From positions 1 to 64,000 of the forward strand of contig JAUNSK010000003.1 of assembly GCA_030539275.1 (NCBI GenBank): a stretch of 64,000 nucleotides of DNA. Direction: 5' to 3'. Below, piece by piece: positions 134-24,226 of the stretch. Made by a program: the position numbers and the translations under genes. Every line of letters starts with the position of its first letter. Position 1 is the stretch's first letter. This DNA is from Oscillospiraceae bacterium (GTDB lineage: Bacteria; Bacillota; Clostridia; Oscillospirales; Ruminococcaceae). Below the pieces are notes generated by a model. That model did not search any database and was not told the DNA's origin. It worked only from the letters and a program-made list of their open reading frames with translations.

Positions 134-2006
134 TGTGAAATATGACGTAGATCTGGCTAAGATACCAGATCTGCTTGAGTTTATCCTTACCAATAAAGGA
201 GTAACCGATATGAGAGGGTTTATGAACCCTACTAGAGGATATGTCAATGATCCGTTTCTTTTGCAAGGGATGGACAAGGCTGTCAACATTCTGAGAGACA
301 TAGCAATTAATAAACCGAAAGTCGACATCGTGGTAGACGCAGATGTTGACGGAATTACTTCTTCTACAATGCTCGTGAATTTCTTTCATGATAATTTTGA
401 AGTCGATTTTAATTATTATTTGCCAATAGGTAAGGAACATGGTCTCAACAATAAAAGACTTCAGTCTCTTAAAGAGTCGGATGCGTCTATAGTAATCATC
501 CCGGACGCAGGTTCTTCAGATGTTGATCAGTGTAAAGAACTATATGAAATGGGTAAGACCATACTGATTATAGACCATCATGTATTTGAAAATCCAGATA
601 TAAGAAAATATACAACAATTGTAAACTGTACAGATGGTGCTTATCCGAATGTGAATATGTCTGGTGCTACAATGGTACAGAAAGTATTTGATGCCCTATT
701 TCAGAGGTTCGGCAAAGAACTAAACCTTGACGAGGGAAAAAGAGACGCATACCTTGAGTTATGTGCGTTAGGTACGATTGCAGACAGCATCAGCTTAACA
801 GATATTGAAACAAGATACTATGTCTGCGAGGGACTCAAGCCTGAGAATGCTCACAACGAATGCCTTAAACAGCTATGCTACAAGAAAGATTACGAAATGT
901 CAGTCGGCAGAACAATTTTTACAATGGGGTATTACATTGCTCCAATGATTAATGCTGTTGTTCGATATGGCAAATGTGCAAACGAAAAGAAGAACACAGA
1001 AAGCGAATTAAAGATGCTATTTGATGCATTTATTAATAAACAAGGTGTGTTTGAATATAAGCCCAGAAAAAGTAAGGGCAACCCAGATCCACAAATTGAA
1101 TATCACTCATTGCAGATGACTGCTGCCAGACTAGCCTTAAACGCTCACAGCAGGCAGAGTAAGGCGGTCTCAACGTTGGTGGACAAACTTGTCGATAAAG
1201 TTTCTGACACGCATAAGGTTATTGTTGTAGACGGCACAGAGGACTTCGAAAAACTTGACCACAATGCCACTGGGCTAGTGGCAAACAGACTAATGAATCA
1301 TTTCATGAAACCTACTTTTGTCTTAGTCAACAAAGGAGGGTCTGGTAGAAGTAATGCAATTGGTAGACTAAAAGATGCAAGAAGTTTCTTCAACGAGTCT
1401 GGTACAATTCATTGCGAGGGTCATCCAAGAGCATTTGGTATTAAATCAATTGACAAAGATGCTTTCATTAAGTTCTGCGATGAAAATATTAAAGATGATG
1501 AACTTCAGAACGCACACGAAGTGGACTTCATGGTGAGTCCAGACAATATCAGACAGAAAGATATCAATGAAATAGGGGACAATCTTCATATCTTCGGTAA
1601 TACAATTAATGCACCTATATTTTATATACCCGGTATAAAAATCAGGAGTGATAAGATAAAAGGTTTGGCTTCATTGGACAGTGATTATATCAGCACATTT
1701 AACTTTAAAGTAAACGGTATTGAGTTTATGAAGAAGTATTGTAAAAGGAATGACTTTAATGAGTTTACATGTCGACCAATGAAAGGATTCGGAGAACCAA
1801 AGCCAAGAGATCTTTGTATTGATATTGTTGCTGAAGTATATACATACATTGATAGCAGCGGTGAAAGAAAATCTGTCCTGAAAATAATGGACTTTCATTC
1901 GGAGAATCTGGGTATTGTAAAAGATACTTCGTTTGATTCTAACCTTGGAAAGAAAACAGATACTAATTCAGAAATAGACAAGACTGACTTCATGTCTTTC
2001 TTCTAA
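120..2006 (+). CDS. RecJ-like DHH-family single-strand DNA exonuclease
   Basis: This 628-residue protein belongs to the DHH/RecJ phosphoesterase family, which degrades single-stranded DNA 5' to 3' using two metal ions. Motif I is DADVDG at residues 73-78; a second acidic motif lies in PDAGSSD (about 129-134); the DHH triad is at 152-154. The N-terminal GFMNPTRGYVNDP stretch is the usual RecJ lead-in. The C-terminal half should hold the DHHA1 domain, seen as SGRSNAIGR and GHPRAFG around 413-450. The ATG follows AAAGAAAGG by nine bases. It is the first full gene of a replication block and is followed by a terminator. Role inferred: recombination or DNA turnover in the element; not a housekeeping recJ because of its company. 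Confidence 0.85.
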   Translation: MIPCNVKYDVDLAKIPDLLEFILTNKGVTDMRGFMNPTRGYVNDPFLLQGMDKAVNILRDIAINKPKVDIVVDADVDGITSSTMLVNFFHDNFEVDFNYYLPIGKEHGLNNKRLQSLKESDASIVIIPDAGSSDVDQCKELYEMGKTILIIDHHVFENPDIRKYTTIVNCTDGAYPNVNMSGATMVQKVFDALFQRFGKELNLDEGKRDAYLELCALGTIADSISLTDIETRYYVCEGLKPENAHNECLKQLCYKKDYEMSVGRTIFTMGYYIAPMINAVVRYGKCANEKKNTESELKMLFDAFINKQGVFEYKPRKSKGNPDPQIEYHSLQMTAARLALNAHSRQSKAVSTLVDKLVDKVSDTHKVIVVDGTEDFEKLDHNATGLVANRLMNHFMKPTFVLVNKGGSGRSNAIGRLKDARSFFNESGTIHCEGHPRAFGIKSIDKDAFIKFCDENIKDDELQNAHEVDFMVSPDNIRQKDINEIGDNLHIFGNTINAPIFYIPGIKIRSDKIKGLASLDSDYISTFNFKVNGIEFMKKYCKRNDFNEFTCRPMKGFGEPKPRDLCIDIVAEVYTYIDSSGERKSVLKIMDFHSENLGIVKDTSFDSNLGKKTDTNSEIDKTDFMSFF

Positions 2007-2015
2007 AGTCTTTAG
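2003..2015. promoter_or_regulatory. Operator-like palindrome at the recJ-like stop codon
   Basis: The 13-mer CTAAAGTCTTTAG overlaps the stop codon. It is a perfect inverted repeat except for the central base and is the most symmetric member of the family found in the promoter spacers of this element. Confidence 0.45.
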
Positions 2016-2031
2016 TAAACAATGTATAATT

Positions 2032-2069
2032 AATATGAGCAGATCATTTGGTTTGCTCATATTTTTTTG
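2032..2069 (+). terminator. Intrinsic terminator after the RecJ-like gene
   Basis: A nine-base-pair stem (ATATGAGCA at 2033-2041 with TGCTCATAT at 2054-2062) is followed by a run of T. It separates the RecJ-like gene from the next operator-promoter. Confidence 0.8.
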
Positions 2070-2092
2070 TTTAATGGATACTAGTAAAAGAC

Positions 2093-2121
2093 TTGACATT
2101 CTAGAAACTTTAGCGTATAAT
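2093..2121 (+). promoter_or_regulatory. Sigma-A promoter with operator in the spacer (P1)
   Basis: TTGACA at 2093-2098 and TATAAT at 2116-2121 are both consensus and 17 bp apart. The spacer contains the operator CTAGAAACTTTAG (2101-2113). A further operator copy lies downstream at 2164-2176 (CTAAAAACTTTAT). The promoter drives the polymerase-helicase pair. A repressor bound in the spacer would block RNA polymerase directly. Confidence 0.85.
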
Positions 2122-2200
2122 AGAATAGTAGTAAAAACATGACGTTAAACATCCGTCTATTTTCTAAAAACTTTATTAAACGCATAGGAAAGGAGAAAAT

Positions 2201-5200
2201 ATGTATTACTCTAATCATAACCACACTGAAGAAAGTAACATCAGATTCTCAGATAGTACAATTAAAGTTGAATCTTTGATAGACAGAGCCATAGAATTAG
2301 GCTACTCTGGCGTCAATATCTCAGATCATGAATGTATATCTGGACATGTTAGGTTTCTTCACCATTATGAAAAACTTAAGAAAGATAATAAATTGCCAAA
2401 AGATTTTAAAGTATCTTTAGGCAATGAGATTTACCTGATTGAAAGTCTCGACAATATATTCTCTGGTAAGGAGAGGTTTTGGCATTTTGTTCTAACTGCA
2501 AAAAATGAAAAAGGTTTCTTTCAGTTAAAACAGTTAAGTTCTCAGGCATGGGGAAACATGATAACTTTTAAGGGCATTGACAGACCTTATATTACTTATT
2601 CCCAACTCCAAGAAATTATAGGTGACAATAAAGGAAATTTAATTGCCACAAGTGCATGTCTTGGCTCTTATTTGAACGAATGCATCTTTGAATATTTCCG
2701 AGACAATAAGCCAGAGGGGAAACAAGGCATCCACAAATATATTTGTTGGTGCATTGACACTTTTGGAGAAGAGAATTTCTTCTTGGAGATACAGCCATCA
2801 AGCCTGTTAGATACCGAGCAAGCACACAGACAGGAATATGCTAACAAAAAACTTGCAATGTTAGCTGAATTATATGGCGTTGGTACAATCGTTGCCACAG
2901 ACTCACATTATCTAAAGAAAGAACACAAGCCATTACACATGTCTTTCCTTAAGGGTAATGATGACGAGGGATCAGGAAGAGAGACAGGAGACTTCTACGA
3001 TGCAACTTATATGATGTCTGAAAATGAGATCAGAAAACATCTTGCAAATCACCTTACACCAGAAGAAATCGATCGTTGTTTTGCAGGCACTATGAAAATA
3101 TACAGTATGATTGAAGAATACACTCTTGATAAGCCGATCATCGTACCGCAAGACAAGCATATCAAGGATGATTTTAAGATCAGACACATCTTCAGAAAGT
3201 GGTATGACAGATGCCCTGATATAAAGCAGTTTGCATACAGTAAAGAACTTAACGACAGATATTTCTTATATCTTGTTGAACAAGGATTCTTACGTCATAA
3301 GCAGCCATTTGATGAACTTCATATTGACCGTATTAATATAGAGATTCATCAGTTGATAGCGATCACACAGCAGTTAGGGCAGTGTATGAGTAAATATTAC
3401 ACACTTGTCCGTAATCTTATACACAATGTTCTTTGGAACGTTACATTAATCCCACCGGGACGTGGTTCTGTAGGTGGATTTTATTGTGCTTATCTTTTGG
3501 ATATCTGCCAACTCTCTGCTATTGATTATGATCTTCCTTGGTGGAGACATATTCACGAAAGTAAGGTGTCTCTTGCCGATATCGATATTGATACTGAGAA
3601 AGCAAAGAGGGGACTTATCCTTGAAGAAATGCAGAAGTATTATGGCAAAGACAATGTACTTAACTGCTTGACCATGACTACCGTTGGTAGTAAATCAGCC
3701 ATCCTTATTTCAGGCAGAGGACTTGGCTATAATAAAGATGAAATGCAGGTACTTGCTGATCTCATTCCGGTGGACAGAGGAAAAGTAAGGTCACTCAAAG
3801 AATGTTTCGAGGGAAACAAAGAAAAAGACATGAGACCAGTAACCGAACTTGTCAACAAAATGAAGAACTACCCAGAACTAATGGAGACTACATTGTTAAT
3901 TGAGGGTCTTATTAACGGCAGGTCAATCCATGCATCGGCGGTTTACATTTTCGAAAACGGATATATCCATCAAAATTCCCTGATGATGTCTAAGAACAAA
4001 GTTCCTACGACAGCATTCACAATGGAGGATTCAGACGCACTGTCTGCTCTTAAGATGGATCTATTAACGGTCGAAGCAGCGGATAAAATTAGAAAATGTG
4101 TGGAACTTCTTTGTGACTATGGATATCTTGAGAAACAGCCGACATTCAAAGAAACTTATTACAAGTATCTCTATCCAGATAAGCTTAACTATGATAATAA
4201 TAAAATGTGGCAAAGACTTGACGAGGGCAAAATATTTGATGCCTTTCAAATGGATACTATAGATGGGTCTAAAGCTATCAGAATGATACAACCACAGAAT
4301 CTGAGAGAACTAGCTGCAGCGAACAGCCTTATGCGACTACAGGGTGATATTCCTCCAATTAATAAGTATGTTGTGTACAAAAAAGACATTAATTTTTGGT
4401 ATGAGGACATGCAAAAAGAGGGTCTAAACCAAGATGAAATAGATGTCCTTAAAGATATCCTTGGTAGTAGCTATGGAATTGCATGTGAACAAGAAGCTGT
4501 AATGATACTCAGTCAGAGTCCTAAAATCTCAAACTTTACAATGAAACAAAGTGATAAACTTCGTAAGGTAATTGCAAAGAAAAAGATTAAAGAAATTGAT
4601 GCCATCAAACAGTTATACTACGAAAATGGTTATAAAGCAGGAACAAGGAAAGAAATGCTTGACTATGTTTGGAATCATCAGATCTCATATTCACTTGGGT
4701 ACAGCTTTTCTCTTCTGCATACAACAGCTTATTCATTGATCTTATTACAGGAAATGAACCTTGCTTGCCATTTTCCGAGTGTATTCTGGGACACTTCATG
4801 TTTGATAATCAATTCATCTTCGGATGAAGAAAATACCGGAGACAAAATAAACTATGTCAAGATATCAAAAACCCTTTCAAGTCTCGGCAGAGAAATAATA
4901 TCTCCACCAGATATCAATACAGCAAATTTTTCTTTCGTACCGGACCCTGTAAAAAACAAGATCATCTATTCACTTAAAGCCATCCCTGGGGTTAATGAGA
5001 CAGCAGCGAAAGAAATCGTGGCAAATAGACCTTATGAGTCATTCGGTAACTTCATTGAAAAAATGAATCAAGTAAAAGAAAGATATAAGAATACAAACAC
5101 AGACGAAGAGAATGCAGATGAAGAGAGTACAGATGTCAATGAAACTGAAGAAGAGGACACAAAGAAATTCCGACTTAATACAGTTGGCATCATCAATCTG

Positions 5201-6193
5201 ATAAAAGCAGGGTCATTTGACAGCATAGAGCCTAGACAACAGTTGTTAATGGAATATGCAAACTCAATATCTAGTCCTCTGAAGTCAGTTACAACTGTTC
5301 AGATCCCAACATTAGAACAGCTTGGATATTTTACCGATGATGATATGATCTTCGTTAATCATTTCAAATATAAAAAGCAGTTGTTTACGGCTTTAAATGT
5401 TTCAAAAAAAATAGGAAAGTCTTCTTCGACTTGGTGGTATCGCATACCGAAAAATCTTGAAGATTATTTTGCGTCAAATTTCCTTATGTATCTTAATGAA
5501 GATCAGTATACCTATTCCGACAGCGGTATTGTGGTCAAGAGACAGGCACTTGAAAAAACAATCGACACCATATGCATGGACTTTAAAGAAAAACTGAAGT
5601 CACCAGAAGTACTTTCATTCATTAATGAGCATAAGGCGGATGAAATACTTAACAAATATGAATGCAACCAGTCTTTCAGCCATTATGAAATGAAAACTCT
5701 TGGAGTTTACCTACACGAACATGAACTGAAAAAGATAGATTATAAGAAATACAATATCACAAAGTATGGGGACATCCCTGCTGCTCCGGTAATACTTGAC
5801 AGTAGAGAATACAGAGGAAGAATATGTTACACATATGAACTTAATAGAATATGTGGCGTTTGCCTTGGAGTAAACAAAGCAAAGCATGTAGTCTTCTTAC
5901 TCACACCAGAGGACGATATTGTTACTGTAAAATTCTATAGTGGGGCATTCGTCCATTATAATCAGAATATCAGTAGAAAAGAAAACGGAAAAAATGTAAC
6001 TCTTGAAGAATCATGGTTTAAAAGAGGAACACTGCTCATGATATGTGGCATAAAACGAGACAGTATGTTTTTTGCTAAAAGTTACAAAGCATCATTGTTT
6101 TCACATTCAGTAATGAAAATAACACAAGTAACAAACGATAGCGAAATAAGAGTTCAGGCAGAACGTTTCGGAGAGATAAGAGAGGACGGATAA
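2201..6193 (+). CDS. dnaE: DNA polymerase III alpha subunit, DnaE type (element replicase)
   Basis: The protein has 1330 residues, somewhat longer than host DnaE. An N-terminal PHP domain begins at once (NHNHTEES, then NISDHE). The C-family polymerase core follows: GRGSVGGFYCAYLL near 423-436, and the catalytic acidic motif ADIDIDTE with Asp 460, 462 and 464. HASAVYIF and the CEQEAVMILSQSP region of the fingers lie further on, then helix-hairpin-helix and OB-like C-terminal parts. A low-complexity Glu/Asp stretch sits near residues 965-990. It starts at an ATG after AGGAAAGGAG, and its stop is one base before the helicase start, so translation is coupled. Role: replicative polymerase of the element, as in large phages that bring their own C-family enzyme. 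Confidence 0.93.
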   Translation: MYYSNHNHTEESNIRFSDSTIKVESLIDRAIELGYSGVNISDHECISGHVRFLHHYEKLKKDNKLPKDFKVSLGNEIYLIESLDNIFSGKERFWHFVLTAKNEKGFFQLKQLSSQAWGNMITFKGIDRPYITYSQLQEIIGDNKGNLIATSACLGSYLNECIFEYFRDNKPEGKQGIHKYICWCIDTFGEENFFLEIQPSSLLDTEQAHRQEYANKKLAMLAELYGVGTIVATDSHYLKKEHKPLHMSFLKGNDDEGSGRETGDFYDATYMMSENEIRKHLANHLTPEEIDRCFAGTMKIYSMIEEYTLDKPIIVPQDKHIKDDFKIRHIFRKWYDRCPDIKQFAYSKELNDRYFLYLVEQGFLRHKQPFDELHIDRINIEIHQLIAITQQLGQCMSKYYTLVRNLIHNVLWNVTLIPPGRGSVGGFYCAYLLDICQLSAIDYDLPWWRHIHESKVSLADIDIDTEKAKRGLILEEMQKYYGKDNVLNCLTMTTVGSKSAILISGRGLGYNKDEMQVLADLIPVDRGKVRSLKECFEGNKEKDMRPVTELVNKMKNYPELMETTLLIEGLINGRSIHASAVYIFENGYIHQNSLMMSKNKVPTTAFTMEDSDALSALKMDLLTVEAADKIRKCVELLCDYGYLEKQPTFKETYYKYLYPDKLNYDNNKMWQRLDEGKIFDAFQMDTIDGSKAIRMIQPQNLRELAAANSLMRLQGDIPPINKYVVYKKDINFWYEDMQKEGLNQDEIDVLKDILGSSYGIACEQEAVMILSQSPKISNFTMKQSDKLRKVIAKKKIKEIDAIKQLYYENGYKAGTRKEMLDYVWNHQISYSLGYSFSLLHTTAYSLILLQEMNLACHFPSVFWDTSCLIINSSSDEENTGDKINYVKISKTLSSLGREIISPPDINTANFSFVPDPVKNKIIYSLKAIPGVNETAAKEIVANRPYESFGNFIEKMNQVKERYKNTNTDEENADEESTDVNETEEEDTKKFRLNTVGIINLIKAGSFDSIEPRQQLLMEYANSISSPLKSVTTVQIPTLEQLGYFTDDDMIFVNHFKYKKQLFTALNVSKKIGKSSSTWWYRIPKNLEDYFASNFLMYLNEDQYTYSDSGIVVKRQALEKTIDTICMDFKEKLKSPEVLSFINEHKADEILNKYECNQSFSHYEMKTLGVYLHEHELKKIDYKKYNITKYGDIPAAPVILDSREYRGRICYTYELNRICGVCLGVNKAKHVVFLLTPEDDIVTVKFYSGAFVHYNQNISRKENGKNVTLEESWFKRGTLLMICGIKRDSMFFAKSYKASLFSHSVMKITQVTNDSEIRVQAERFGEIREDG

Positions 6194-6194
6194 G

Positions 6195-9100
6195 ATGGAA
6201 AATGATACAATTAAAATTAAAATAGGTGAGAAAGTAGAATTTAAGGGTAGAGCAACATATGTTCTCTACCCACCTAAAAAGGGTGGCAAAGTAATAAACT
6301 CTGATAATCCGTGGGCATGTATCAAATTTGCAGTTATAGACTTAATTACTGGTACGCTTTCTTCTGACGAATATACGGATGGAATAATATTAACAGGAGA
6401 TTTTGGTTTCGATCCAATAAACGGAGAAAATAGAAATGATATTTACAAAATATCATTTACAAGAGGTTTTAACAATAAGCGTAATGCTCCAGAAAATACT
6501 TTAGTAAACATAGGAGTTGATTATGACTTCAATTCAGAAGTAGACCAGAAAAATTTTCTGAGACATTTTCTTACCGATAAGCAAATCAGTTCTCTTTACG
6601 CTCTTCCTCAGTCTCCATTTAAGAGTATAGCAGATGGAAATGTTGAAGCACTATGTCAGGCGAAAGGGATAGGAGATACGGTTGCTCAGAGGATAATAGA
6701 TAAGTATAAAGATCATCTGGCATACGCAGAGTTCTATGTTGAGTTTCCTAATCTTGATTTAACAAACCATCAGATCATGACTTTAATTAAATATTATGGC
6801 TCTGTAACCGCAGCAGTTTCAGCCATAAAAGAAAACCCATATTCACTAATGAAAGTCAATGGATTTTCATTCATTAAATGTGACAATATAGCAATAATGA
6901 ATGGATTGTCGAAAAATAGTGTTGAAAGAATTAAAGCGTTTCTCACTACATATCTTCAAGAAAAGTCGGACAGTGGATTGAACTGGATGGAGGGATCTGA
7001 ACTTAATGCAGATATCTTTAAATACCTTGGAGATCCGAAAGAGGTAGTTGAGATCTTTACAGAAGAAAGAAAGCAGGAAAAAGGATATACTGAAGCGAAT
7101 TGTATTGCAGAAGCTATAAAACAGCTTAAGCAAGAAGATACAATGAGCGTAGCAATTGACTTCGAAAAACCCGGTGAAAAAAAATACTACCTCAATAGCA
7201 TATACAAAATAGAACAGGATGTTGCAAAGATGCTTTGTAAATTAGTTCACTCACCAGTTGCTCCAGTCGATGATAAGTGGGAAGAAAGAGTACGTAGCAT
7301 CGAACAAAAAAATGGTTGGGAATTTAATAAGGGACAGTGGGACGGTATTAAAAAAGGTTGCGAAAACAACGTTTTGGTCATCTCAGGTGGAGCAGGTTGC
7401 GTAGATGCCGATACAGAGTTTTTTAACGGCATTGAGTGGAAACGTATTGCAGACTTTGAACCTACAGATAAGGTATTACAATACAAGGCAAACGGATATT
7501 CGGAGTTGGTCAAGCCTGCAAGCTATATCAAACAGAAAGCAAGTGTATTGTGTGAGTTAAAAGGTAAGAAAAAAGAAGATATCGACATGTGCCTTTCAAT
7601 GGATCACAATTGCTTATACATTGACACAGACGGAGTTTGGAAAAAGGATAGTCTTAACGATATTCTCAACATGCACAAGCAACAGCATGGCTTCCGTGGC
7701 AGATTCCCAAGTATATTTAAATGCAGTGAGGAAGATGAAGAATTAACAGATACAGAAGTTTTATTTATAGCAGCCTTAATCCACAGCGGAGAATTTTGTA
7801 TCAACAACAACAATTTAATGTGTCTTATAAGAGTCGGATTAAATGATCTTACTGCAAGAACGTTAAAGGAATGCTTGAGTCAGATGTCTTTACAGTATAC
7901 CCTTGATGTACTAGGTAGCCCACACAAGGTGTATTGTATACAGCTTTCACTGCGAATATATAACGCTATGCGTGATTGGACTTGTTTCTCAGTACGTCAG
8001 GCAGAAATAATGAAAAAACATTTTGAAGAGTACTACACAGCATACTCAGGCAATGAAATACTAAGAAATAAAAATAAACAGTGTGCTGACTTTATTCAGG
8101 GTATCTACGCTATATGTGGTAAGACAATAGGCATAACAAAAGAGGAGAGTCATTATAGTCTTTTTAATTGTGAAAAGACAACCTATACACTGACAAACAG
8201 TACTCCAAAGAAAAAAATATTAATTCCTAAAATTGTAGATACAAAAGATGGATACCAATATTGTTTCTCAGTCCCAAGTGGAAATCTTGTTTTAAGAAGA
8301 AACGGTAAGATATTTATTACTGGTAATTGTGGCAAGACAGCTTTACTTAAGGGTCTGTTATCTGCATTAAATATAGACCCACACTATATTGCTATGTGTG
8401 CATTTACTGGAAAAGCAGCTGCAAGGATGCAAGAGTCTACTGGTAGAAAAGCAAGTACAATTCATAAGCTTTTAAAGATCCAAGGAGATACACCAGAATA
8501 TAATGAAAACAACCCTTTGCCATACAAAGTTATAATAATGGACGAGTTTTCAATGACTCCTATCGCACTTCTGCGATCATTATTAAAGGCTATGGACAGT
8601 GAGTGTAGGTTTATATTACTTGGCGATATGGGACAGCTACAGAGCATATCAATGGGAAATGTGGCACATGATCTTATTAATTCTAAAGCCATCCCAAGTG
8701 TGACTCTAACAGAAGTTATGCGTCAGGCACAGGACAGTGGCATTATATGTACAGCACACGATATCTCACATGGTAAGAAGATATTTCAGAATAGTTTCTC
8801 TGGTGATATGCTTATAAAAAATGATACTTATGTTTTTGTGCATAAGGATAGTCAGGTATTACTTGACACAATAATATCGGACTTCAAAAAAAGATGGGAC
8901 AACAAAAAGATTGAAAATAAGAAAGACTTCATCTTCCTTGCTCCTGTCAAAAATAAAGGCAGCTTATGCACGGCAGTACTAAATAATGCTATACAGGAAG
9001 TCGTTAATCCACAGTCGAAGATCCAACAATTTTTTAAAGAAGAACTTGCTATAGAGTTCGCAGATGAAAAAAAGAATTTCAAATTAAGAGTGGGAGACTG

Positions 9101-9593
9101 TATCATTTGTAACCGTAATAAATATGGTGTAGAAACTACTACTATCGTCAAAGTTCCGACCGAGGACGGAGATCATTTGATGGATAAGCCAATTACAACA
9201 GATATATTCAATGGTTGGACAGGGGAACTTATAAAGCTTGACAAAGAAAATCAGATGGGTTATTTTAAGTTTTTTGAATGTAACTACACGGTTGTTTTGG
9301 GAGTGGACGATATCAAAGAGAATATATCTCTTGGCTATGCGATCAGTGTACACAAAAGCCAAGGAGGCGAGTGGAAAGAAGTCTATGTAGCTGTTGACAA
9401 TAGTGCTTATACAATGCTGACAAGGGAGATACTGTATACAGTAACTACAAGAGCAAAGAGTAAACTACTAATGTACGTTTCGCCTACAGCCTTTAATAGA
9501 GCAATAAATATAATTGATAGTAGTTTACGTAGGACATTCTTAATGGAGACATTGGAAGAAGAAGACGCAATGTATAATGAAATACCTTTTTAA
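6195..9593 (+). CDS. RecD2-like superfamily 1B helicase containing an intein
   Basis: The precursor has 1132 residues; removal of the intein (residues 402-711) leaves an 822-residue 5'-3' helicase. The N-terminal part has the helix-hairpin-helix of RecD2 (AKGIGDTVAQRI). The Walker A motif is split: GGAG before the intein and CGKTA after it. After the intein come GKAAARM (motif Ia), IIMDEFSM (Walker B), GDMGQLQSI (motif III) and the RecD C-terminal SVHKSQGGEW motif. The gene starts two bases after the polymerase stop and probably works with it at the fork. Activity depends on splicing, since the unspliced protein has no P-loop. Confidence 0.93.
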   Translation: MENDTIKIKIGEKVEFKGRATYVLYPPKKGGKVINSDNPWACIKFAVIDLITGTLSSDEYTDGIILTGDFGFDPINGENRNDIYKISFTRGFNNKRNAPENTLVNIGVDYDFNSEVDQKNFLRHFLTDKQISSLYALPQSPFKSIADGNVEALCQAKGIGDTVAQRIIDKYKDHLAYAEFYVEFPNLDLTNHQIMTLIKYYGSVTAAVSAIKENPYSLMKVNGFSFIKCDNIAIMNGLSKNSVERIKAFLTTYLQEKSDSGLNWMEGSELNADIFKYLGDPKEVVEIFTEERKQEKGYTEANCIAEAIKQLKQEDTMSVAIDFEKPGEKKYYLNSIYKIEQDVAKMLCKLVHSPVAPVDDKWEERVRSIEQKNGWEFNKGQWDGIKKGCENNVLVISGGAGCVDADTEFFNGIEWKRIADFEPTDKVLQYKANGYSELVKPASYIKQKASVLCELKGKKKEDIDMCLSMDHNCLYIDTDGVWKKDSLNDILNMHKQQHGFRGRFPSIFKCSEEDEELTDTEVLFIAALIHSGEFCINNNNLMCLIRVGLNDLTARTLKECLSQMSLQYTLDVLGSPHKVYCIQLSLRIYNAMRDWTCFSVRQAEIMKKHFEEYYTAYSGNEILRNKNKQCADFIQGIYAICGKTIGITKEESHYSLFNCEKTTYTLTNSTPKKKILIPKIVDTKDGYQYCFSVPSGNLVLRRNGKIFITGNCGKTALLKGLLSALNIDPHYIAMCAFTGKAAARMQESTGRKASTIHKLLKIQGDTPEYNENNPLPYKVIIMDEFSMTPIALLRSLLKAMDSECRFILLGDMGQLQSISMGNVAHDLINSKAIPSVTLTEVMRQAQDSGIICTAHDISHGKKIFQNSFSGDMLIKNDTYVFVHKDSQVLLDTIISDFKKRWDNKKIENKKDFIFLAPVKNKGSLCTAVLNNAIQEVVNPQSKIQQFFKEELAIEFADEKKNFKLRVGDCIICNRNKYGVETTTIVKVPTEDGDHLMDKPITTDIFNGWTGELIKLDKENQMGYFKFFECNYTVVLGVDDIKENISLGYAISVHKSQGGEWKEVYVAVDNSAYTMLTREILYTVTTRAKSKLLMYVSPTAFNRAINIIDSSLRRTFLMETLEEEDAMYNEIPF
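7398..8327 (+). other. Intein inserted in the helicase Walker A motif
   Basis: The intein is 310 residues long and in frame. It starts with Cys1 (CVDADTEFF, block A), has block B as CLSMDHNCL with the conserved His, and ends with block F (VPSGNLVLRRNGKIFITGN) followed by Cys+1 of the C-extein. The penultimate residue is Gly where His is usual; Gly is tolerated in some phage inteins. The middle part contains LFIAALIHSGEF, which resembles a worn LAGLIDADG homing endonuclease helix, so homing activity may be lost. Insertion exactly between GGAG and CGKT matches the known habit of inteins to sit in ATP-binding loops. Confidence 0.92.
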
Positions 9594-9599: not shown

Positions 9600-9650
9600 C
9601 TAAAAACTTTGTCAAAAACTCTTGACATTCTAAAAAGTTTGGCGTATAAT
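9600..9650 (+). promoter_or_regulatory. Dual-operator promoter (P2)
   Basis: TTGACA at 9622-9627 and TATAAT at 9645-9650 with a 17-bp spacer. One operator copy fills the spacer (CTAAAAAGTTTGG, 9630-9642); a second (CTAAAAACTTTGT, 9600-9612) lies exactly 30 bp upstream. It controls the gene at 9710. Confidence 0.85.
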
Positions 9651-9686: not shown

Positions 9687-9709
9687 ATATAATAATGGAG
9701 GAAATAAAA

Positions 9710-10078: not shown

Positions 10079-10083
10079 AGTTT

Positions 10084-10125
10084 CTAAAAAAAAGGATTGA
10101 CTTTCTAAAAACTTTAGTGTATAAT
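10084..10125 (+). promoter_or_regulatory. Operator promoter (P3)
   Basis: TTGACT at 10097-10102 and TATAAT at 10120-10125, 17 bp apart, with operator CTAAAAACTTTAG at 10105-10117. A half-site CTAAAAA lies at 10084. A further copy, CTAAAAACTTCAG, is in the leader at 10178-10190. Confidence 0.82.
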
Positions 10126-10130
10126 ATAAG

Positions 10131-10175: not shown

Positions 10176-10222
10176 TTCTAAAAACTTCAGTGAAAATTGA
10201 AGAGAAAGGAAACCTTACACTA

Positions 10223-10399
10223 ATGAAAAACACTGAATCTACCAAAGAGTTTGCTGATATATTCAAGCAATTGCCTAAAGATTCTTCTCCTCTTACAGAG
10301 GATGAAATAAATTTCGTTTATCGAGATAGCAAATATGAAGTCAACAGCAAAAGGTGGAATAAAACCTATAGAAAAGCTTACAACAAGAAAGGAAAATAG
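10223..10399 (+). CDS. Small hypothetical protein
   Basis: A 58-residue, Lys-rich protein with a predicted helical middle (TEDEINFVYRDSKYEV) and a basic C-terminus. The ATG at 10223 is chosen because the in-frame GTG at 10190 lies inside an operator copy. An AGAAAGGA ribosome binding site is 12 bases upstream. The gene ends in TAG, which shows that TAG is a working stop in this element, and the kinase gene follows one base later. Function unknown. Confidence 0.55.
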   Translation: MKNTESTKEFADIFKQLPKDSSPLTEDEINFVYRDSKYEVNSKRWNKTYRKAYNKKGK

Positions 10400-10400
10400 T

Positions 10401-11000
10401 ATGGACGTAATTTTTATAGCAGGAAAGTCTGCCGTAGGGAAAGATACATTCTTTCAGAATATAACAGATAAAAAATATAATAAGATCATCCCGTACACAA
10501 CAAGACCAAAAAGGTCAAATGAAGTTGACGGAGTTGATTACCACTTCATTTCAGATAAAACAGTTTTAAACCATGAAGATATCGCAGCTATGGCTCAGTA
10601 TCATCCTGCAATTGGTGGGACATGGACATTCATTATTGATAAAAAGTCTTTTATTGAAGACAAGATCAATGTAGTTATCGCACCACCAAGTATGATAAAA
10701 ACAATTCAGGAAACGATGGGCGTAACTGGAACAATCATATACCTGTATACATTTGCACATTCAAGAATATCTCGTATGTTAAATAGGGATACTTCTTCAG
10801 CTGCAATATCAGAAAGTTGTAGAAGATATCTTGCAGACGAAAAAGATTTCAAAGAATACTACGACAGATGCAACAGCAAAGAGTTTTGCAATGTCTTGTC
10901 AGAACATGAAGTCTACCAATATATGTGTGTAACCTTTACCAGACATGAAGTTAATAACCTGATGGATATTATATATTCAACAGCGAAGACGGAGGGGTAA
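10401..11000 (+). CDS. Guanylate-kinase-like nucleoside monophosphate kinase
   Basis: A 199-residue protein with the P-loop GKSAVGKDT at residues 8-16 and the GMP-binding lid signature PYTTRPKRSNEVDGVDYHF at about 31-49, which are hallmarks of guanylate kinases. The ATG at 10401 is preceded by AGAAAGGAAAA and gives the standard N-terminal strand MDVIFIAGKS. In-frame codons reach upstream into the previous gene but without a good initiation site. Known role of the family: GMP or dGMP to the diphosphate. In this context it would feed dGTP synthesis alongside NrdD, ThyX and dUTPase. The C-terminal half is more divergent than in host Gmk. Confidence 0.8.
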   Translation: MDVIFIAGKSAVGKDTFFQNITDKKYNKIIPYTTRPKRSNEVDGVDYHFISDKTVLNHEDIAAMAQYHPAIGGTWTFIIDKKSFIEDKINVVIAPPSMIKTIQETMGVTGTIIYLYTFAHSRISRMLNRDTSSAAISESCRRYLADEKDFKEYYDRCNSKEFCNVLSEHEVYQYMCVTFTRHEVNNLMDIIYSTAKTEG

Positions 11001-15348: not shown

Positions 15349-15399
15349 CTAAAAACTTTAGTGAAAATTATTGACATTCTAGAAACTTTGCTGTATAAT
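15349..15399 (+). promoter_or_regulatory. Dual-operator promoter (P4)
   Basis: TTGACA 15371-15376, 17-bp spacer, TATAAT 15394-15399. Operators at 15349-15361 (CTAAAAACTTTAG) and in the spacer at 15379-15391 (CTAGAAACTTTGC), again 30 bp apart. It drives the gene at 15464 and probably the genes following. Confidence 0.85.
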
Positions 15400-16042: not shown

Positions 16043-16055
16043 CTAAAAACTTTTC
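16043..16055. promoter_or_regulatory. Single operator copy without a clear promoter
   Basis: CTAAAAACTTTTC lies 18 bases after the preceding stop and just before the ribosome binding site of the zinc-ribbon gene. No -35 or -10 box of the usual layout is seen. Confidence 0.5.
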
Positions 16056-16642: not shown

Positions 16643-18913
16643 ATGCAGAACATTAAAGTAATCAAAAGAGACGGGTCAAAGGTTGAGTTTGACGAAGACA
16701 AGATTGTATCAGCAATCGAAAGAGCAATCTTAGAGGTATTGCCTGATGGCAAAGAAGAACTTGCAAAGAAAGCATCACTGAATTTCGCTGCTGTAGTTAT
16801 TGCAACTATCATTACACGTTTCAAGAATGTCGAAGAGCCTGAGATATCTGTTGAAGACATTCAGGATGTAGTTGAATCTTTCCTCATGGATGTAAATAAG
16901 CCGGTGGCTAAAGCTTATATTACTTATCGTTACAAGAGAAGTCTTGTGAGAGACAGTAATACAACTGACAAGACTATTATGGAACTTATCGATGGTACAA
17001 GCGATTATTGGAATCATGAAAATTCTAATAAAAATGCTCAGATCTCAACAGTACAGAGAGACTATATGGCAGGAATCACAAGTACAGACATAACAGAGAG
17101 GTTCTTACTCCCACAGGACATTCTTGATGCTCATAAGGCAGGCATTTTACATTTTCATGATGCAGACTATTTCGTTCAGCATATTACAAACTGTTGTCTT
17201 ATCAATTTGGAGGACATGCTTCAGAATGGTACTGTAATCAATGGTGTGTGGATAGACAAGCCACACAGAATACTGACAGCAGCTACGATATCTACTCAGA
17301 TCATCACAGGCGTTGCATCTTCTCAATATGGTGGTACAACAGTATCACTTTCACATCTTGCTCCATTTGTAAGAGATAGCTATAAGAAACATTATGAGAA
17401 GTATCAGAACAGAGGTCTCACACCAGATCTTTGCGTTCAGTATGCCAAAGAAGACCTCAAAGACGAGATAGAAGCAAGTGTTCAGACATTCAATTATCAG
17501 GTCAATTCCATGTTTACAACAAATGGACAAGCACCTTTCCTCTCTGTATTTATGTACATTTCAGAAGATCCGGAATACAGCGAAGAAGTTGCCATGCTTA
17601 TTGAAGAATTTCTCAAACAGAGAATACTCGGTATGAAAAATGAAGAGGGAGTATATACAACTCCTGCATTCCCTAAGTTGCTTTATGTACTTGAAGAGAG
17701 CAATGTAACTGGCAAGTATGCCTACTTAACTGAAATGGCTGCAAAGTGTTCAGCTAAAAGACTTGTCCCAGACTATATCTCTGAGAAGATAATGAAACAG
17801 CTTAAAGTTGATGACAACGGAGACGGTCAGTGTTATGGATGTATGGGATGTAGAAGTTTCCTTACTCCATATCTTGATGAAAACGGAAAGCCGAAGTACT
17901 ATGGTAGATTTAATCAGGGTGTAGTTACGATCAATTTGGTGGACTTAGCATTGTCTTCTGGTGGTGACATGGATAGGTTCTGGGATCTCTTTGAAAAGAG
18001 AACTGAATTATGCCACAAGGCTTTACAGTGCAGACACGAAAGACTTGAGGGTACTTTATCTGATGTAGCACCTATCTTCTGGCAGTATGGAGCAATTGCA
18101 CGTCTGAAAAAAGGTGAAAAAATTGATAAGCTACTTCATGGTGGCTATTCAACATTGTCTCTCGGATATGCAGGATTATATGAATGCGTCAAGTACATGA
18201 CTGGACACAGCCATACTGATGGGGACATCGGTAAAGAGTTCGGACTTAAAGTCATGAAAGCTTTAAACGATAAGTGCAATGCATGGAGAGCAGATGAAGA
18301 TATAGCGTACAGCCTATACGGCTCTCCGATTGAAAGCACAACATATAAGTTTGCTAAGTGCTTACAGGAACGCTTCGGTGTCATTGAGGGCATTACAGAT
18401 AGAGACTATATTACAAATAGCTATCACGTACATGTAACCGAACCAATTGATCCATTTGAGAAACTTTCTCTTGAAAGTGAATTTCAGGCACTCAGTCCCG
18501 GTGGTGCAATTTCCTATGTTGAAACAGCAGATATGAATGATAACATTCCGGCTGTACTTGATGTTATATACTATATCTACGACCACATCATGTATGCTGA
18601 GTTAAATACCAAGTCTGACTATTGTCAGGTGTGTGGATATACAGGTGAAATAAAAATCATCGATGAAAACGGTGAACTTATCTGGGAATGCCCAAACTGT
18701 GGCAACAGAGATCAGAATAAGATGAACGTTGCAAGACGTACATGCGGATATATTGGAACTAATTTCTGGAATCAAGGTCGCACACAGGAAATTCTGGAGA
18801 GATATGTCCATCTTGACAATCATGTAATCGAAATCGAAATGTCAGACGTTCAGACTATAGATTACATTCCAGACGATATAAAACAGATAGACGTAAAAGA
18901 GGAGGAAAAATAA
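16643..18913 (+). CDS. nrdD: Anaerobic (class III) ribonucleoside-triphosphate reductase
   Basis: The 756-residue protein makes dNTPs from NTPs without oxygen. An ATP-cone regulatory domain covers about residues 4-95 (IKVIKRDGSKVEFDEDKI). The ten-stranded barrel core follows, with HFHDADYF and the NCCLIN loop. The zinc site is C661, C664, C683 and C686. The glycyl-radical segment RRTCGYIG places the radical on Gly 702. The last 16 residues form an acidic tail. It is one base from nrdG, so the pair is translated together. Class III enzymes of the E. coli/T4 group take electrons from formate; which subgroup this one belongs to was not settled by eye. Confidence 0.96.
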   Translation: MQNIKVIKRDGSKVEFDEDKIVSAIERAILEVLPDGKEELAKKASLNFAAVVIATIITRFKNVEEPEISVEDIQDVVESFLMDVNKPVAKAYITYRYKRSLVRDSNTTDKTIMELIDGTSDYWNHENSNKNAQISTVQRDYMAGITSTDITERFLLPQDILDAHKAGILHFHDADYFVQHITNCCLINLEDMLQNGTVINGVWIDKPHRILTAATISTQIITGVASSQYGGTTVSLSHLAPFVRDSYKKHYEKYQNRGLTPDLCVQYAKEDLKDEIEASVQTFNYQVNSMFTTNGQAPFLSVFMYISEDPEYSEEVAMLIEEFLKQRILGMKNEEGVYTTPAFPKLLYVLEESNVTGKYAYLTEMAAKCSAKRLVPDYISEKIMKQLKVDDNGDGQCYGCMGCRSFLTPYLDENGKPKYYGRFNQGVVTINLVDLALSSGGDMDRFWDLFEKRTELCHKALQCRHERLEGTLSDVAPIFWQYGAIARLKKGEKIDKLLHGGYSTLSLGYAGLYECVKYMTGHSHTDGDIGKEFGLKVMKALNDKCNAWRADEDIAYSLYGSPIESTTYKFAKCLQERFGVIEGITDRDYITNSYHVHVTEPIDPFEKLSLESEFQALSPGGAISYVETADMNDNIPAVLDVIYYIYDHIMYAELNTKSDYCQVCGYTGEIKIIDENGELIWECPNCGNRDQNKMNVARRTCGYIGTNFWNQGRTQEILERYVHLDNHVIEIEMSDVQTIDYIPDDIKQIDVKEEEK

Positions 18914-18914
18914 T

Positions 18915-19415
18915 ATGCGTTATGCTCAGATCCGTTCGCTTGATATAAGTAATGGAACTGGGGTTGGGGTAGCTTTGTTCACACAAGGCTGCCACTTCCA
19001 TTGTTCTGGTTGTTTTAATGCGAACACTTGGGATTTCAAAGGTGGTATAGAGTGGACTAAAGAAACTCATGAGTCATTTATGAAACTTGTAGATAGACCA
19101 TACATTCAGAGAGTTACCATTTTAGGTGGAGAACCACTTGAAGAATGCAACTATGACGCTCTTATTGATTTACTTCGTGAAATCAAAAGTAAACATAGTG
19201 ATAAAATAATATGGCTTTACACAGGGTTTACATGGGAAGACGCACTGAAGAGTGAGAAACGTAAAGAAATACTTCAGTATGCAGACGTAGTTGTTGAGGG
19301 TCAGTACAAAGAAGCTCTCAAAGATCCGAACCTACATTTCAGGGGTTCATCCAATCAGAGAATAATTAATTCTCAGGAAAGCTTAAAGAAAGGCAAGGTT
19401 GTTGCTTATGTTTGA
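18915..19415 (+). CDS. nrdG: Class III RNR activating enzyme (radical SAM)
   Basis: A 166-residue radical SAM enzyme that installs the glycyl radical on NrdD. The iron-sulfur cluster motif CxxxCxxC is C26, C30 and C33 in TQGCHFHCSGCFNANTW. The GGEPL SAM-binding motif follows near residue 75. Size and layout are those of NrdG. It directly follows nrdD and overlaps the next gene by eight bases. Confidence 0.95.
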   Translation: MRYAQIRSLDISNGTGVGVALFTQGCHFHCSGCFNANTWDFKGGIEWTKETHESFMKLVDRPYIQRVTILGGEPLEECNYDALIDLLREIKSKHSDKIIWLYTGFTWEDALKSEKRKEILQYADVVVEGQYKEALKDPNLHFRGSSNQRIINSQESLKKGKVVAYV

Positions 19416-19677: not shown

Positions 19678-20841
19678 ATGCCTAATTATTTAAATAATAA
19701 ATGGATAAGAGGAGTACTACCTGCTTTATTCATCCATCTGAGTATAGGTTCTGTGTATGCTTTTAGTCTGCTATCTAAGCCAATAGCAGACTACATAGGC
19801 AGAACACAATCGTCAGTACAGTTCGCCTTTAGTTTGGCTATATTCTTCCTCGGCACATCGGCTGCCTTTGGAGGAAATATAGTAGAAAAAAATATAAGAA
19901 GAAGTAGCTTACTGAGCATGTTCTTCTTTATTTCTGGACTTATAATAACTGGTATATCAGTGTACTTAAAATCGCTCCTAGGCGTGTATATAGGGTACGG
20001 TTGCATTATGGGGATAGGATTAGGCATAGGGTACTTAACCCCTGTCAAAACCCTCATGTTGTGGTTCTCAGAGCATAGAGGACTAGCAACTGGAATAGCT
20101 GTATGCTCATTTGGATTCGGTTCTGCTCTTGCAACTCCAATAATAAACAAATTAATAACTACACTGCCGGTATATCAGGTGTTTTGGGGCTTAGCAGGTG
20201 TTTATGCCTTACCTATGTTACTGTCCCATTGGCTTATAAGGAAACCACATGTTGCCGTGGCACATTCAGAATCGAATGATTTTAAGTTAAAAGAACTTCT
20301 TAAAAATCCAACCTTTATATGTATATGGTTAATGGTCTATATTAATATTGGCTGTGGATTAGCAGTCATACCAAACGCAGTATCAATATTATCATCGTAT
20401 AATGTTGGAAAAGTTGCACTCACCGTAGGCATAATGGGAATCTTTAATGGAGCAGGAAGACTGATCTTTTCTGCTGTATCTGATAAGTTCCCTAAAAGAG
20501 AAGTCATTTATTATTTAATATTTACTCTATCGTTTATAGCCTGTATTATAGGTATGATATTTAAAACTTGCTTACCAATTACATTGGTTGTTGTTTCAGC
20601 TTGCTATGGAGCAGGATTCAGCTGCTTACCAAGTCTGCTTTCAGATAGATTTGGAATGAACAACATAAGCAAGATTCATGGATGGTCATTAACTGCATGG
20701 GCATTAGCAGGGCTTACCGGAAATCAGATGGCTAATTTGATTAACGGAAAAACCGGAAGTTATACACCAGTGTTCATTGTAATATCAGCATTGTATCTTA
20801 TAGGCTTATTCATTAGTCTCAGGATAAAAGAAAAGAACTAA
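19678..20841 (+). CDS. MFS transporter of the oxalate/formate antiporter (OFA) family
   Basis: A 387-residue membrane protein with about twelve hydrophobic segments. The first (LPALFIHLSIGSVYAFSLLSKPI) and the GIGLGIGYLTPVKTLMLWFSEHRGLATGIAVCSFGFGSA region are typical of OFA-type carriers, which move oxalate, formate and other small carboxylates. It starts 12 bases after the DUF1653 stop behind AAGGAG, so it shares a transcript with nrdDG. A carrier gene is unusual cargo for a phage-like element. Formate supply for NrdD is a reasonable but unproven link; the substrate cannot be fixed from sequence. Confidence 0.82.
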   Translation: MPNYLNNKWIRGVLPALFIHLSIGSVYAFSLLSKPIADYIGRTQSSVQFAFSLAIFFLGTSAAFGGNIVEKNIRRSSLLSMFFFISGLIITGISVYLKSLLGVYIGYGCIMGIGLGIGYLTPVKTLMLWFSEHRGLATGIAVCSFGFGSALATPIINKLITTLPVYQVFWGLAGVYALPMLLSHWLIRKPHVAVAHSESNDFKLKELLKNPTFICIWLMVYINIGCGLAVIPNAVSILSSYNVGKVALTVGIMGIFNGAGRLIFSAVSDKFPKREVIYYLIFTLSFIACIIGMIFKTCLPITLVVVSACYGAGFSCLPSLLSDRFGMNNISKIHGWSLTAWALAGLTGNQMANLINGKTGSYTPVFIVISALYLIGLFISLRIKEKN

Positions 20842-20859: not shown

Positions 20860-20910
20860 CTAAAAACTTTAGGGAAATATATTGACTTTCTAGAAACTTT
20901 AGTGTAGAAT
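20860..20910 (+). promoter_or_regulatory. Dual-operator promoter (P5)
   Basis: TTGACT 20882-20887, 17-bp spacer, TAGAAT 20905-20910. Operators at 20860-20872 (CTAAAAACTTTAG) and 20890-20902 (CTAGAAACTTTAG), 30 bp apart. Confidence 0.83.
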
Positions 20911-21449: not shown

Positions 21450-22142
21450 ATGAAGATTACAATTTTATCAGAAACTACTTTAAATCCTATTACAAAGATA
21501 GGTGAACGTGCAGGCATTTGTCAGGGAGCAAACATCACTGACCCGGTTGCTAATTACAAAAGAGGTATTGAATGCCTTGAATCTAATCATGGCAGAGCAT
21601 TTGAATATGTTAATGTTGAACTCTGTATTGCAGACGTTTCTGCAAGAGTCATTCGAGAATGGTACACACATATTGGTGGAATGCCAACTAGACTACAGGA
21701 GTCTACAAGATATGTCAACTTTGATAAGAAACCTTTCGGATATGTTATTCCTCCAAGTATTAAGGGCAACCCAAGAGCATTGAAAGTATACCAGACAGCA
21801 ATGGCTTTCATTCTTCAGAGCATGAGAGCATTAAAGGCTATGGGTGTACCGAATGAAGATGCGACAATGTTACTGCCACTCGGATCGACAACAATGGTCG
21901 TTGATAAGCGTAATCTGAGAAGTCATATGGATATGTCTCATACTCGTCTGTGCGATAGAGCATTCTGGGAATATAGAGATATCGAAAGAGAAATAATGCG
22001 TCAGCTTTCTGCATTGTCGGAAGAGTGGGCGTACATAATCGAACACTATTTCATGCCAAACTGCCAGTTCTTCGGAAGATGCAGAGAAACAAGAAAGTGT
22101 AAAAAAAATAAAGAAAGAAGTAATGCTAATGGGAACTCCTAA
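21450..22142 (+). CDS. thyX: FAD-dependent thymidylate synthase
   Basis: The 230-residue protein methylates dUMP to dTMP using FAD and methylenetetrahydrofolate. The ThyX signature region appears in variant form as REWYTHIGGMPTRLQESTRYVNF (about residues 71-93), keeping the Q-E-S-x-R substrate-binding end of the motif. The C-terminal AFWEYRDIEREIM and the closing MPNCQ segment fit the family. The start follows AAGGGAGAACTAAAA. With dUTPase downstream it gives a dUTP to dTTP route in the element. The 3' end overlaps the next gene. Confidence 0.9.
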   Translation: MKITILSETTLNPITKIGERAGICQGANITDPVANYKRGIECLESNHGRAFEYVNVELCIADVSARVIREWYTHIGGMPTRLQESTRYVNFDKKPFGYVIPPSIKGNPRALKVYQTAMAFILQSMRALKAMGVPNEDATMLLPLGSTTMVVDKRNLRSHMDMSHTRLCDRAFWEYRDIEREIMRQLSALSEEWAYIIEHYFMPNCQFFGRCRETRKCKKNKERSNANGNS

Positions 22143-22776: not shown

Positions 22777-22786
22777 GGAGAGCAGC

Positions 22787-22984: not shown

Positions 22985-22995
22985 AAAAAATAATT

Positions 22996-23046
22996 CTAAA
23001 AACTTTAGTGAAAATTATTGACATTCTAGAAACTTTAGCATATAAT
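22996..23046 (+). promoter_or_regulatory. Dual-operator promoter (P6)
   Basis: TTGACA 23018-23023, 17-bp spacer, TATAAT 23041-23046. Operators at 22996-23008 and 23026-23038, both intact and 30 bp apart. The leader to the next good start is about 130 bases. Confidence 0.86.
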
Positions 23047-23178
23047 ATAAACATGCCAAGGAAACAACAGAAAGTTCAGTCTACGAAAAGTACAGAAGAG
23101 TCAATGGAGACGATTTAAGAAATCTTCTTCTGTCATTTGTAGGACTTCATGATAAAAAATAAAACAAGAGGTGTGAAA

Positions 23179-23535
23179 ATGCAAGAGATAGCAAAGTTGA
23201 AAGATGTATCTGAAATTCGTCAATTAATTATTGATAATCCAGATCTACCTCTGATAGTTGCTGTAAGCAAAGATCTTACCGGTGAAGACATGGATTACAA
23301 CTATAGCATTGCTACAAATACAATTGCTTCAGTTGACTCTATGACTGTCTGTGAAGATAAGAAACACGACACGATGTTGTGGCTTACTAAAGAAGAGTTT
23401 GCCGATGCCTTATCTGATATTTATGGTGATAATCCCAAGTACAGGGATATGTCAGACAAGGAATTTGAAAAGGTAATCCAAGAGAAAGTAAACCAAGCAG
23501 AGTTTACAAAGGCAATTGTAATTTATGCAAACTAA
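23179..23535 (+). CDS. Hypothetical protein
   Basis: A 118-residue acidic protein. The ATG at 23179 follows AAGAGGTGTGAAA and is preferred to the upstream in-frame ATG at 23149. The pattern DNPDLPLIVAVSKDLTG and a C-terminal amphipathic helix (KEFEKVIQEKVNQAEFTKAI) can be seen. First solid gene after dual-operator promoter P6. No family was recognised. Confidence 0.7.
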   Translation: MQEIAKLKDVSEIRQLIIDNPDLPLIVAVSKDLTGEDMDYNYSIATNTIASVDSMTVCEDKKHDTMLWLTKEEFADALSDIYGDNPKYRDMSDKEFEKVIQEKVNQAEFTKAIVIYAN

Positions 23536-23566
23536 ATAACAATCCTCTATAGTAGGAGCAACCAGA

Positions 23567-23650
23567 ATGAATAGAAAGCGAGAGAAACCCTTGTACACAA
23601 TTGAAGAAATCTGTAAGATGAATGGTATTGAAACAGGAGGTACTTTATGA
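23567..23650 (+). CDS. 27-codon ORF coupled to the next gene
   Basis: ATG at 23567, eight bases after TAGGAG, opens 27 codons (MNRKREKPLYTIEEICKMNG...) that end in an ATGA overlap with the following start. The YTIEEICKMNG piece looks like the first helix of a DNA-binding domain. It may be a short real peptide, a coupling leader, or the stub of a degraded gene. Confidence 0.4.
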   Translation: MNRKREKPLYTIEEICKMNGIETGGTL

Positions 23651-24168
23651 CCAAAGAACGTGAAGAAAGGCTTGCCAAGCTTGAAGAACTTAGAAAACAG
23701 AAAGGAGAGATTTGCAGTGAAATCATTAAACTAGAAAAAGAAGAAAAGCAACTCGAAAGATATACTCCTTTGGTAGGTTATCCTGATAATGGTTATTTAT
23801 ATATAACATTACACAACAAAGTTATATCAGATGTTTTTACTTACACGACTGATGATCGAAAACAGGTTGATGGTTTATTTAAGGACTATAATATTTGGAA
23901 ACCTGATCAAAAAACAGAGGTGGCTTTACAAACTCTTTGTGAAATGAAAATTGATCTTTATAAGAAGATGCAGTTAAAGCTTAAACTGTGTCCTAATTTT
24001 AAACCAATTCTGGAAAATGGGGTTTATCACTATTGTGTGTTGGGAAAATCTCTTGATGGTAAATATGTTCCTATGGATATACTTGAATCTAATTTAATAA
24101 ATGAACCAACTTTTCCAGATATGGAGACTGCTCAGAAAGCTTGCGATATGATAGAGGATGGATTTTAA
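23647..24168 (+). CDS. Hypothetical protein with N-terminal coiled coil
   Basis: A 173-residue protein. Residues 1-37 are a strongly charged coiled coil (EREERLAKLEELRKQKGEI). The rest is mixed and aromatic-rich. Start by ATGA overlap with the small upstream ORF; an AACAGGAGGTACTTT site precedes it. No family was recognised. Confidence 0.68.
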   Translation: MTKEREERLAKLEELRKQKGEICSEIIKLEKEEKQLERYTPLVGYPDNGYLYITLHNKVISDVFTYTTDDRKQVDGLFKDYNIWKPDQKTEVALQTLCEMKIDLYKKMQLKLKLCPNFKPILENGVYHYCVLGKSLDGKYVPMDILESNLINEPTFPDMETAQKACDMIEDGF

Positions 24169-24213
24169 AATCATATAAAGTTAATTCGGTATTGCGTTTC
24201 TAGTCAATCAATT

Positions 24214-24226
24214 CTAGAAACTTTAA
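24214..24226. promoter_or_regulatory. Operator copy upstream of dut
   Basis: CTAGAAACTTTAA lies 34 bases before the dUTPase start. The matching -35 position reads AATCAA and the -10 region TAAATT, so the promoter itself is weak or decayed. A second CTAG half-site is at 24200. Confidence 0.5.

Follow-up and report, generated by a model that had tools for sequence, protein, structure and literature searches.

An oriented 13-bp site in promoter spacers as the probable operator of an SPβ-like prophage in an Oscillospiraceae bacterium

What is the role of a short word that recurs before the replication and nucleotide-metabolism genes of a phage-like element in a Clostridia genome, and what kind of protein reads it? 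The element occupies the left part of a window of 64,000 nucleotides (positions 1 to 64,000, forward strand, of contig JAUNSK010000003.1, hereafter C9, in assembly GCA_030539275.1 of an Oscillospiraceae bacterium), the right part of which is host DNA. A sequence-only reading of this window had listed about fifteen copies of a 13-bp palindrome, several of them within the spacers of near-consensus promoters, and had suggested that one regulator governs the entire replication and nucleotide module. Very probably, the copies form a genuine regulon under operator control in an SPβ-like prophage, and their restriction to the element, in front of such genes, suits a single regulator.

Direct inspection of the letters confirms all fifteen 13-mers, from position 2003 to 24214. 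Their common form is TTCTARAAACTTTAG, in which TTCTA is invariant (15/15) and the right end is variable, and their leave-one-out matrix scores range from 11.5 to 20.1 bits, site 2003 being the weakest. The palindrome survives in part: the site is an imperfect oriented dyad but no plain palindrome, because 14 of the 15 copies score higher along the direction of transcription; the remaining one, 2003, is the most symmetric and scores higher in reverse. As had been noticed, the copies lie essentially between genes. Fourteen are outside 30 hand-chosen open reading frames (ORFs), which leave 9.5% of positions 1-26000 non-coding, and 2003 overlaps the recJ stop codon; ORF 10190, if GTG is used as its start, overlaps site 10178 by one base.

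A 13-bp matrix derived from these sites gives 17 matches of at least 12 bits in positions 1-26000 (the fifteen sites, a second match to 2003 read in reverse, and a minus-strand match at 10075) and none in 26001-64000, in line with the earlier remark that the host half is free of them, while 40 dinucleotide shuffles of the element gave a mean of 1.25 matches and a maximum of 5. The same holds for close matches across all 49 contigs of the genome (3.68 Mb), where a similar density would have spoken against the regulon: with at most one mismatch, the 15-mer TTCTARAAACTTTRG occurs 16 times, 13 of them between 2 and 24 kb on C9. Only such close matches are meaningful, because the count at up to two mismatches (45) falls below that of the reversed control (108) and a looser pattern, allowing three mismatches, is no commoner in the window itself than expected by chance (83 observed vs 81.5 expected).

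Six of the fifteen copies fill 17-bp spacers in one fixed register, with TTGAC(A/T) starting 8 bases before the start of the 13-mer and TATAAT, or TAGAAT at the sixth promoter, starting 15 bases after it, precisely as first described. In the element, 12 of 25,880 positions fit this register at up to two mismatches, the six included, and no other register within 60 bases on each side is common to more than one copy, except that which results from 30-bp pairs. Indeed, each of the six promoters (P1 to P6; Table 1) has one companion copy within 75 bp, located exactly 30 bp upstream at 9600, 15349, 20860 and 22996, and 63 or 73 bp downstream at 2164 and 10178, respectively. These companions were among the sites already listed, and their spacing had gone unremarked; the distances would be near whole helical turns. 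The spacer copies of P1, P4, P5 and P6 and the copy at 24214 read CTAGA, and the spacer copies of P2 and P3 and all four upstream companions read CTAAA.

The element is called SPβ-like here because its polymerase is 37.5% identical to YorL of SPβ over 99%; its RecJ-like and polymerase genes are adjacent and in the same order as YorK-YorL in that phage of Bacillus subtilis. The SPβ protein MrpR (YopR) is described in PMC10516654 as having a tyrosine-recombinase fold without recombinase activity and as binding ten SPβ promoters in chromatin affinity precipitation sequencing (ChAP-seq), with a 15-bp motif that matches SPBRE, an element which this 2023 paper traces to 1999. We derived an SPBRE pattern from SPβ promoter sequences, deduced its spacer register from the letters of NC_001884, and found nine matches in two stretches of that sequence (75,901 of 134,416 bases; yosX lies outside them), all nine pointing with the adjacent gene. 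Four of them fill 17-bp spacers of TAGACA-N17-TATAAT or TATCAT promoters (yonP, yorE, yorZ and yorM, where the match falls just inside the annotated start), and yorE has a less exact second copy 38 bp upstream. The spacer geometry, which had been put forward as a distinguishing trait of the present element, is therefore not new, since SPBRE and two MrpR-bearing relatives (L070 and L064, below) show it as well.

The two systems further share dispersed, mostly intergenic sites that are oriented with transcription, the confinement of many copies to the phage that marks an SPBRE/MrpR regulon, and a related polymerase and RecJ-like exonuclease. They differ in their letters (ACAAATAATATGTA in SPβ versus TTCTARAAACTTTAG here, and the window 13-mer does not occur with fewer than two mismatches in 49,901 SPβ bases), in the constant 30-bp pairs at four promoters and in the site directly before the polymerase gene, both peculiar to the element studied here. 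Moreover, MrpR is known in SPβ, whereas the repressor of this element was not found in the assembly. New here are the operator letters and the constant 30-bp pairing.

Relatives carry the same layout with other letters. A plain-protein search of IMG/VR confirmed no relative; an alignment search for the polymerase confirmed at least 582 of 600 candidates, 80 records were kept, and 24 of these were searched for MrpR. Fourteen of the 24 encode an MrpR relative (26-100% identity). Three of them with MrpR at 99-100% (L080, L092 and L095) have SPβ's spacer word; in L070 (38%), three spacers contain AAAATACAAATAACATA, which is repeated 32 bp upstream in two cases, and in L064 (30%), TTTAATACAAAATAAGT fills one spacer and recurs 31 bp upstream, with a four-change variant in a second spacer. 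Two records without an MrpR match can be added: L086, a 37-kb fragment, has a different spacer word three times, and the IMG/VR phage L101 has seven plus-strand promoter-like places of the TATAAT type whose spacers end with CACCCCAA or a close variant, possibly another operator or promoter class. Since L070, L064, the SPβ-type relatives, L086 and L101 carry different spacer words, the layout recurs while the letters change. A scan of 1,852 promoters for upstream copies gave 17 matches, compared with 3-7 in each of five shuffles: four in the window, six of SPβ type at 38 bp in near-identical, non-independent relatives, one each in L064 and L070, and five others that we do not count (two in L073 and one each in L081, L114 and L121).

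Exact promoter-operator patterns gave 0 and 1 stretches in IMG/VR and 7 in GTDB genomes; none of these eight has a TTGAC -35 in register, six have a single near match in the stretch examined, L019 and L022 have one more on the other strand, and all were judged to be chance. In the same search series, only the own genome matched among 11 genomes of the genus, own included, and the polymerase was found at E 1e-100 in the own genome alone among 394 genomes of the order, own included. Megablast of window positions 1-25000 against phages and plasmids gave no match, and distant blastn of 9600-10330 returned 98 records at E ≤1, the five listed having E values of 0.2-0.8 over 6-8% of the query. In the open-access literature searched, neither this element nor a comparison of operator letters among SPβ-like phages was encountered.

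Based on the above data, we propose that the lysogeny (master) repressor of an SPβ-like prophage, the left arm of which is missing from the assembly, most likely uses these sites as its operators. During lysogeny, this repressor would occupy the spacers of six near-consensus promoters of host type and thereby block RNA polymerase. Because near-consensus hexamers need no activator, blocking is the simplest action of a spacer-bound protein, and such promoters, taken with the SPβ precedent, would favour a regulator whose effect is off rather than on. A further copy, some three helical turns upstream or six to seven downstream, could allow two repressor units to bind cooperatively; same-orientation pairs three turns apart would place them on one DNA face, and the downstream copies may strengthen binding via a loop or act as roadblocks, as the oriented stoperators of mycobacteriophage L5. 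Once the repressor is released, the genes for the polymerase, the helicase and nucleotide metabolism would be switched on jointly with the small early genes. By analogy with SPβ, we lean slightly towards a repressor of the MrpR type, with a tyrosine-recombinase fold.

No clear regulator gene was recognised among the scanned ORFs of the element, as had been stated for the window. The only repressor-like candidate is a small HTH_17 protein (25630-25830) near the right end, which we rejected since it is excisionase-like and has no site before its gene; the expected helix-turn-helix (HTH) protein with its own copy of the site was thus not encountered. The prophage is only partly assembled, with its left arm outside the assembly: the window begins at the first base of C9, inside the element, and the first 43 bases of C9 have no second occurrence in the assembly at up to two mismatches. 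Integrase matches on contigs C6, C25, C28 and C35 were discarded as left arm, their ORF lists not resembling the missing part, and so was a DnaB match on C13, which sits in an ORF; the start of this ORF presumably belongs to a RadA.

Several results weigh against control by an SPβ-type lysogeny repressor. SPβ MrpR has no match at E 10 in the own assembly, from which the left arm is missing, and a seven-row MrpR profile reaches a best E of 0.031 there, in a 333-residue host recombinase with a strong Phage_integrase match; because the left arm lies outside the assembly, the failure of these searches does not show that the prophage lacks such a gene. In nine of the 14 MrpR-bearing records, no recurring spacer operator was seen in the roughly 14-24 kb surrounding the polymerase (motif follow-up was made on four of the nine). 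A spacer-cluster test, in which 9 of 87 stretches exceeded their 30 shuffles, is neither specific nor sensitive: it is passed by the Enterocloster phages CB457P1 (10 vs a shuffle maximum of 6) and PMBT24 (7 vs 6), through AT-rich spacers with extended -10 elements, and it is failed by the SPβ stretches and by L080 and L095, which carry SPβ's word. Five of the nine passing stretches were judged operator-like (the window, L060, L092, L086 and L101) and four not (L040, L042, L084 and L100). Since the test passes AT-rich phages and misses SPβ, the case for the layout rests on the inspected examples. A repeat scan yielded mostly AT-rich words and was used solely to choose L101 and the phage GR1 discussed below. 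The gene content also recalls PMBT24 (single-strand exonuclease, polymerase, exonuclease V, anaerobic ribonucleotide reductase and dUTPase), a phage called virulent by its authors (PMC11035940).

Another reading is L5-like: a repressor, which in L5 has two domains, would bind an asymmetric, oriented site both within promoters and between closely spaced genes and would also halt elongation, the copies outside promoter spacers (2164, 10178, 16043 and 24214) serving as roadblocks. According to PMC9283540, L5 sites are asymmetric, oriented 13-mers in promoters and short intergenic gaps, and thus share size, asymmetry, orientation and placement with the present sites, 14 of 15 of which follow transcription and 14 of 15 of which are non-coding. 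L5 is, however, an unrelated phage, SPβ being the nearer relative, and the fixed -35/-10 register and the 30-bp pairs set the present element apart from it. Furthermore, four of the nine non-spacer copies precede a promoter by 30 bp, a position at which read-through could be halted, though not the transcript of the promoter itself, and no L5-type repressor was recognised among the scanned element ORFs, no search for one having been made elsewhere. We consider stoperators possible though rather doubtful; they overlap with the lysogeny-repressor explanation and do not exclude it.

A phage-specific promoter class, with the spacer word read by a phage sigma factor or an activator, is suggested by Geobacillus phage GR1 (L039), which has a related polymerase, an annotated sigma-70 family gene and its own repeated promoter word, TTTACGTTTTTAA-CAGATATAA, with 20 plus-strand matches at up to two mismatches. 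Both phages present one word at many promoter-like places, but the GR1 word includes the hexamers themselves, whereas the hexamers here are already near the host consensus; nine of the 15 copies have no promoter in register at up to two mismatches, and no sigma gene was recognised among the scanned element ORFs. This makes a promoter class improbable. Still less credible, to the point of being highly improbable, is a spread of the copies by duplication of promoter cassettes with no common regulator: P4 and P6 are near-identical over a long stretch spanning both copies, as duplication would have it, but the other copies differ in their flanks, some stand alone, and the TTCTA core is kept in 15/15 at spacings of 30, 63 or 73. 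The lysogeny repressor remains our preferred explanation.

Table 1 Operator copies, promoters and principal genes of the element (window coordinates).
Feature	Coordinates	Strand	Remarks
RecJ-like exonuclease	120..2006	+	SPβ YorK counterpart; phrog_2484; tblastn 29.3% identity over 85%
Operator copy	2003..2015	.	Overlaps recJ stop; weakest, most symmetric; better score on minus strand
P1, TTGACA-N17-TATAAT	2093..2121	+	Operator 2101-2113 in spacer; precedes polymerase gene
Operator copy	2164..2176	+	In leader, 63 bp downstream of P1 copy
DnaE-type polymerase	2201..6193	+	SPβ YorL counterpart; 37.5% identity over 99%
RecD2-like helicase	6195..9593	+	
Operator copy	9600..9612	+	Tandem, 30 bp upstream of P2 copy
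P2, TTGACA-N17-TATAAT	9622..9650	+	Operator 9630-9642
P3, TTGACT-N17-TATAAT	10097..10125	+	Operator 10105-10117
Operator copy	10178..10190	+	In leader, 73 bp downstream of P3 copy
Guanylate kinase-like	10335..11000	+	
Operator copy	15349..15361	+	Tandem, 30 bp upstream of P4 copy
P4, TTGACA-N17-TATAAT	15371..15399	+	Operator 15379-15391
Operator copy	16043..16055	+	Single; upstream of 16293 and nrdD, beside weak -10-like TAGAAA
NrdD and NrdG	16643..19415	+	Two ORFs; anaerobic ribonucleotide reductase and its activase
Operator copy	20860..20872	+	Tandem, 30 bp upstream of P5 copy
P5, TTGACT-N17-TAGAAT	20882..20910	+	Operator 20890-20902
ThyX thymidylate synthase	21450..22142	+	
Operator copy	22996..23008	+	Tandem, 30 bp upstream of P6 copy
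P6, TTGACA-N17-TATAAT	23018..23046	+	Operator 23026-23038
Operator copy	24214..24226	+	Single; right before dUTPase gene, with weak -10-like sequence
dUTPase	24260..24772	+	

The genes of the element follow the order RecJ-like, polymerase, RecD2-like, guanylate kinase, P-loop kinase, RNase H, ligase parts, NrdD, NrdG, major facilitator superfamily (MFS) transporter, ThyX and dUTPase. The leaders of P2 (9648-9683) and P3 (10135-10164) open with hairpins that are stronger than those of shuffled sequences (z -2.3 and -4.5, respectively), with a terminator-like call at 9648; the other four leaders have no hairpin stronger than shuffles. An ATP-dependent DNA ligase at 14040-15299 is distributed over two ORFs, an adenylation part of 283 amino acids and an OB part of 116, and may be a split gene or a two-piece enzyme. 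The MFS transporter gene (19678-20841) is situated inside the phage early region. The first gene behind P5 (20962-21447) has a weak likeness to the RnlB antitoxin family (E 1.1e-4; 22.9 bits vs a cut-off of 27) and no NCBIfam or PADLOC match; YosL and AimX of the SPβ type have been proposed as antitoxins, a proposal cited in PMC10516654.

Towards the right end, 25360-25570, read by eye, resembles a remnant of an IS21-type insertion sequence cutting ORF 24818-25453. On visual inspection, positions 25960-26019 resemble the 3' half of a leucine transfer RNA (tRNA) gene, a likely attachment site, which a tRNA model matches weakly (16.4 bits, E 0.85); the 23-base right end has no other occurrence in the assembly at up to two mismatches. 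The host part (26272-64000) contains a gene like those of non-ribosomal peptide synthetases, which includes an acyltransferase domain, and encodes two proteins that bear dockerins, one of them together with a GH43 domain; this suggests a relative of the cellulosome-type Ruminococcus.

Lastly, we tentatively suggest, as a possibility well short of probable, that SPβ-like prophages have a conserved promoter 'socket' in common: a repressor site in a 17-bp spacer and, some three turns upstream, a second copy in the same orientation. The operator letters fitted into this socket would be specific to each lineage and change with the divergence of its MrpR-type repressor; the downstream copies of the present element would then be roadblocks, a stoperator-like function outside mycobacteriophages. 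The lysogeny-repressor explanation itself would extend SPBRE-type control, studied in Bacillus subtilis, to a prophage of a different host, probably a gut-type anaerobe, and it suggests a conserved layout with changing letters. From sequence alone, this may offer a simple way to find the operators of large SPβ-like prophages and, through them, their immunity groups, and it would provide natural pairs of operator and repressor with which to study DNA recognition by a repressor of recombinase fold.

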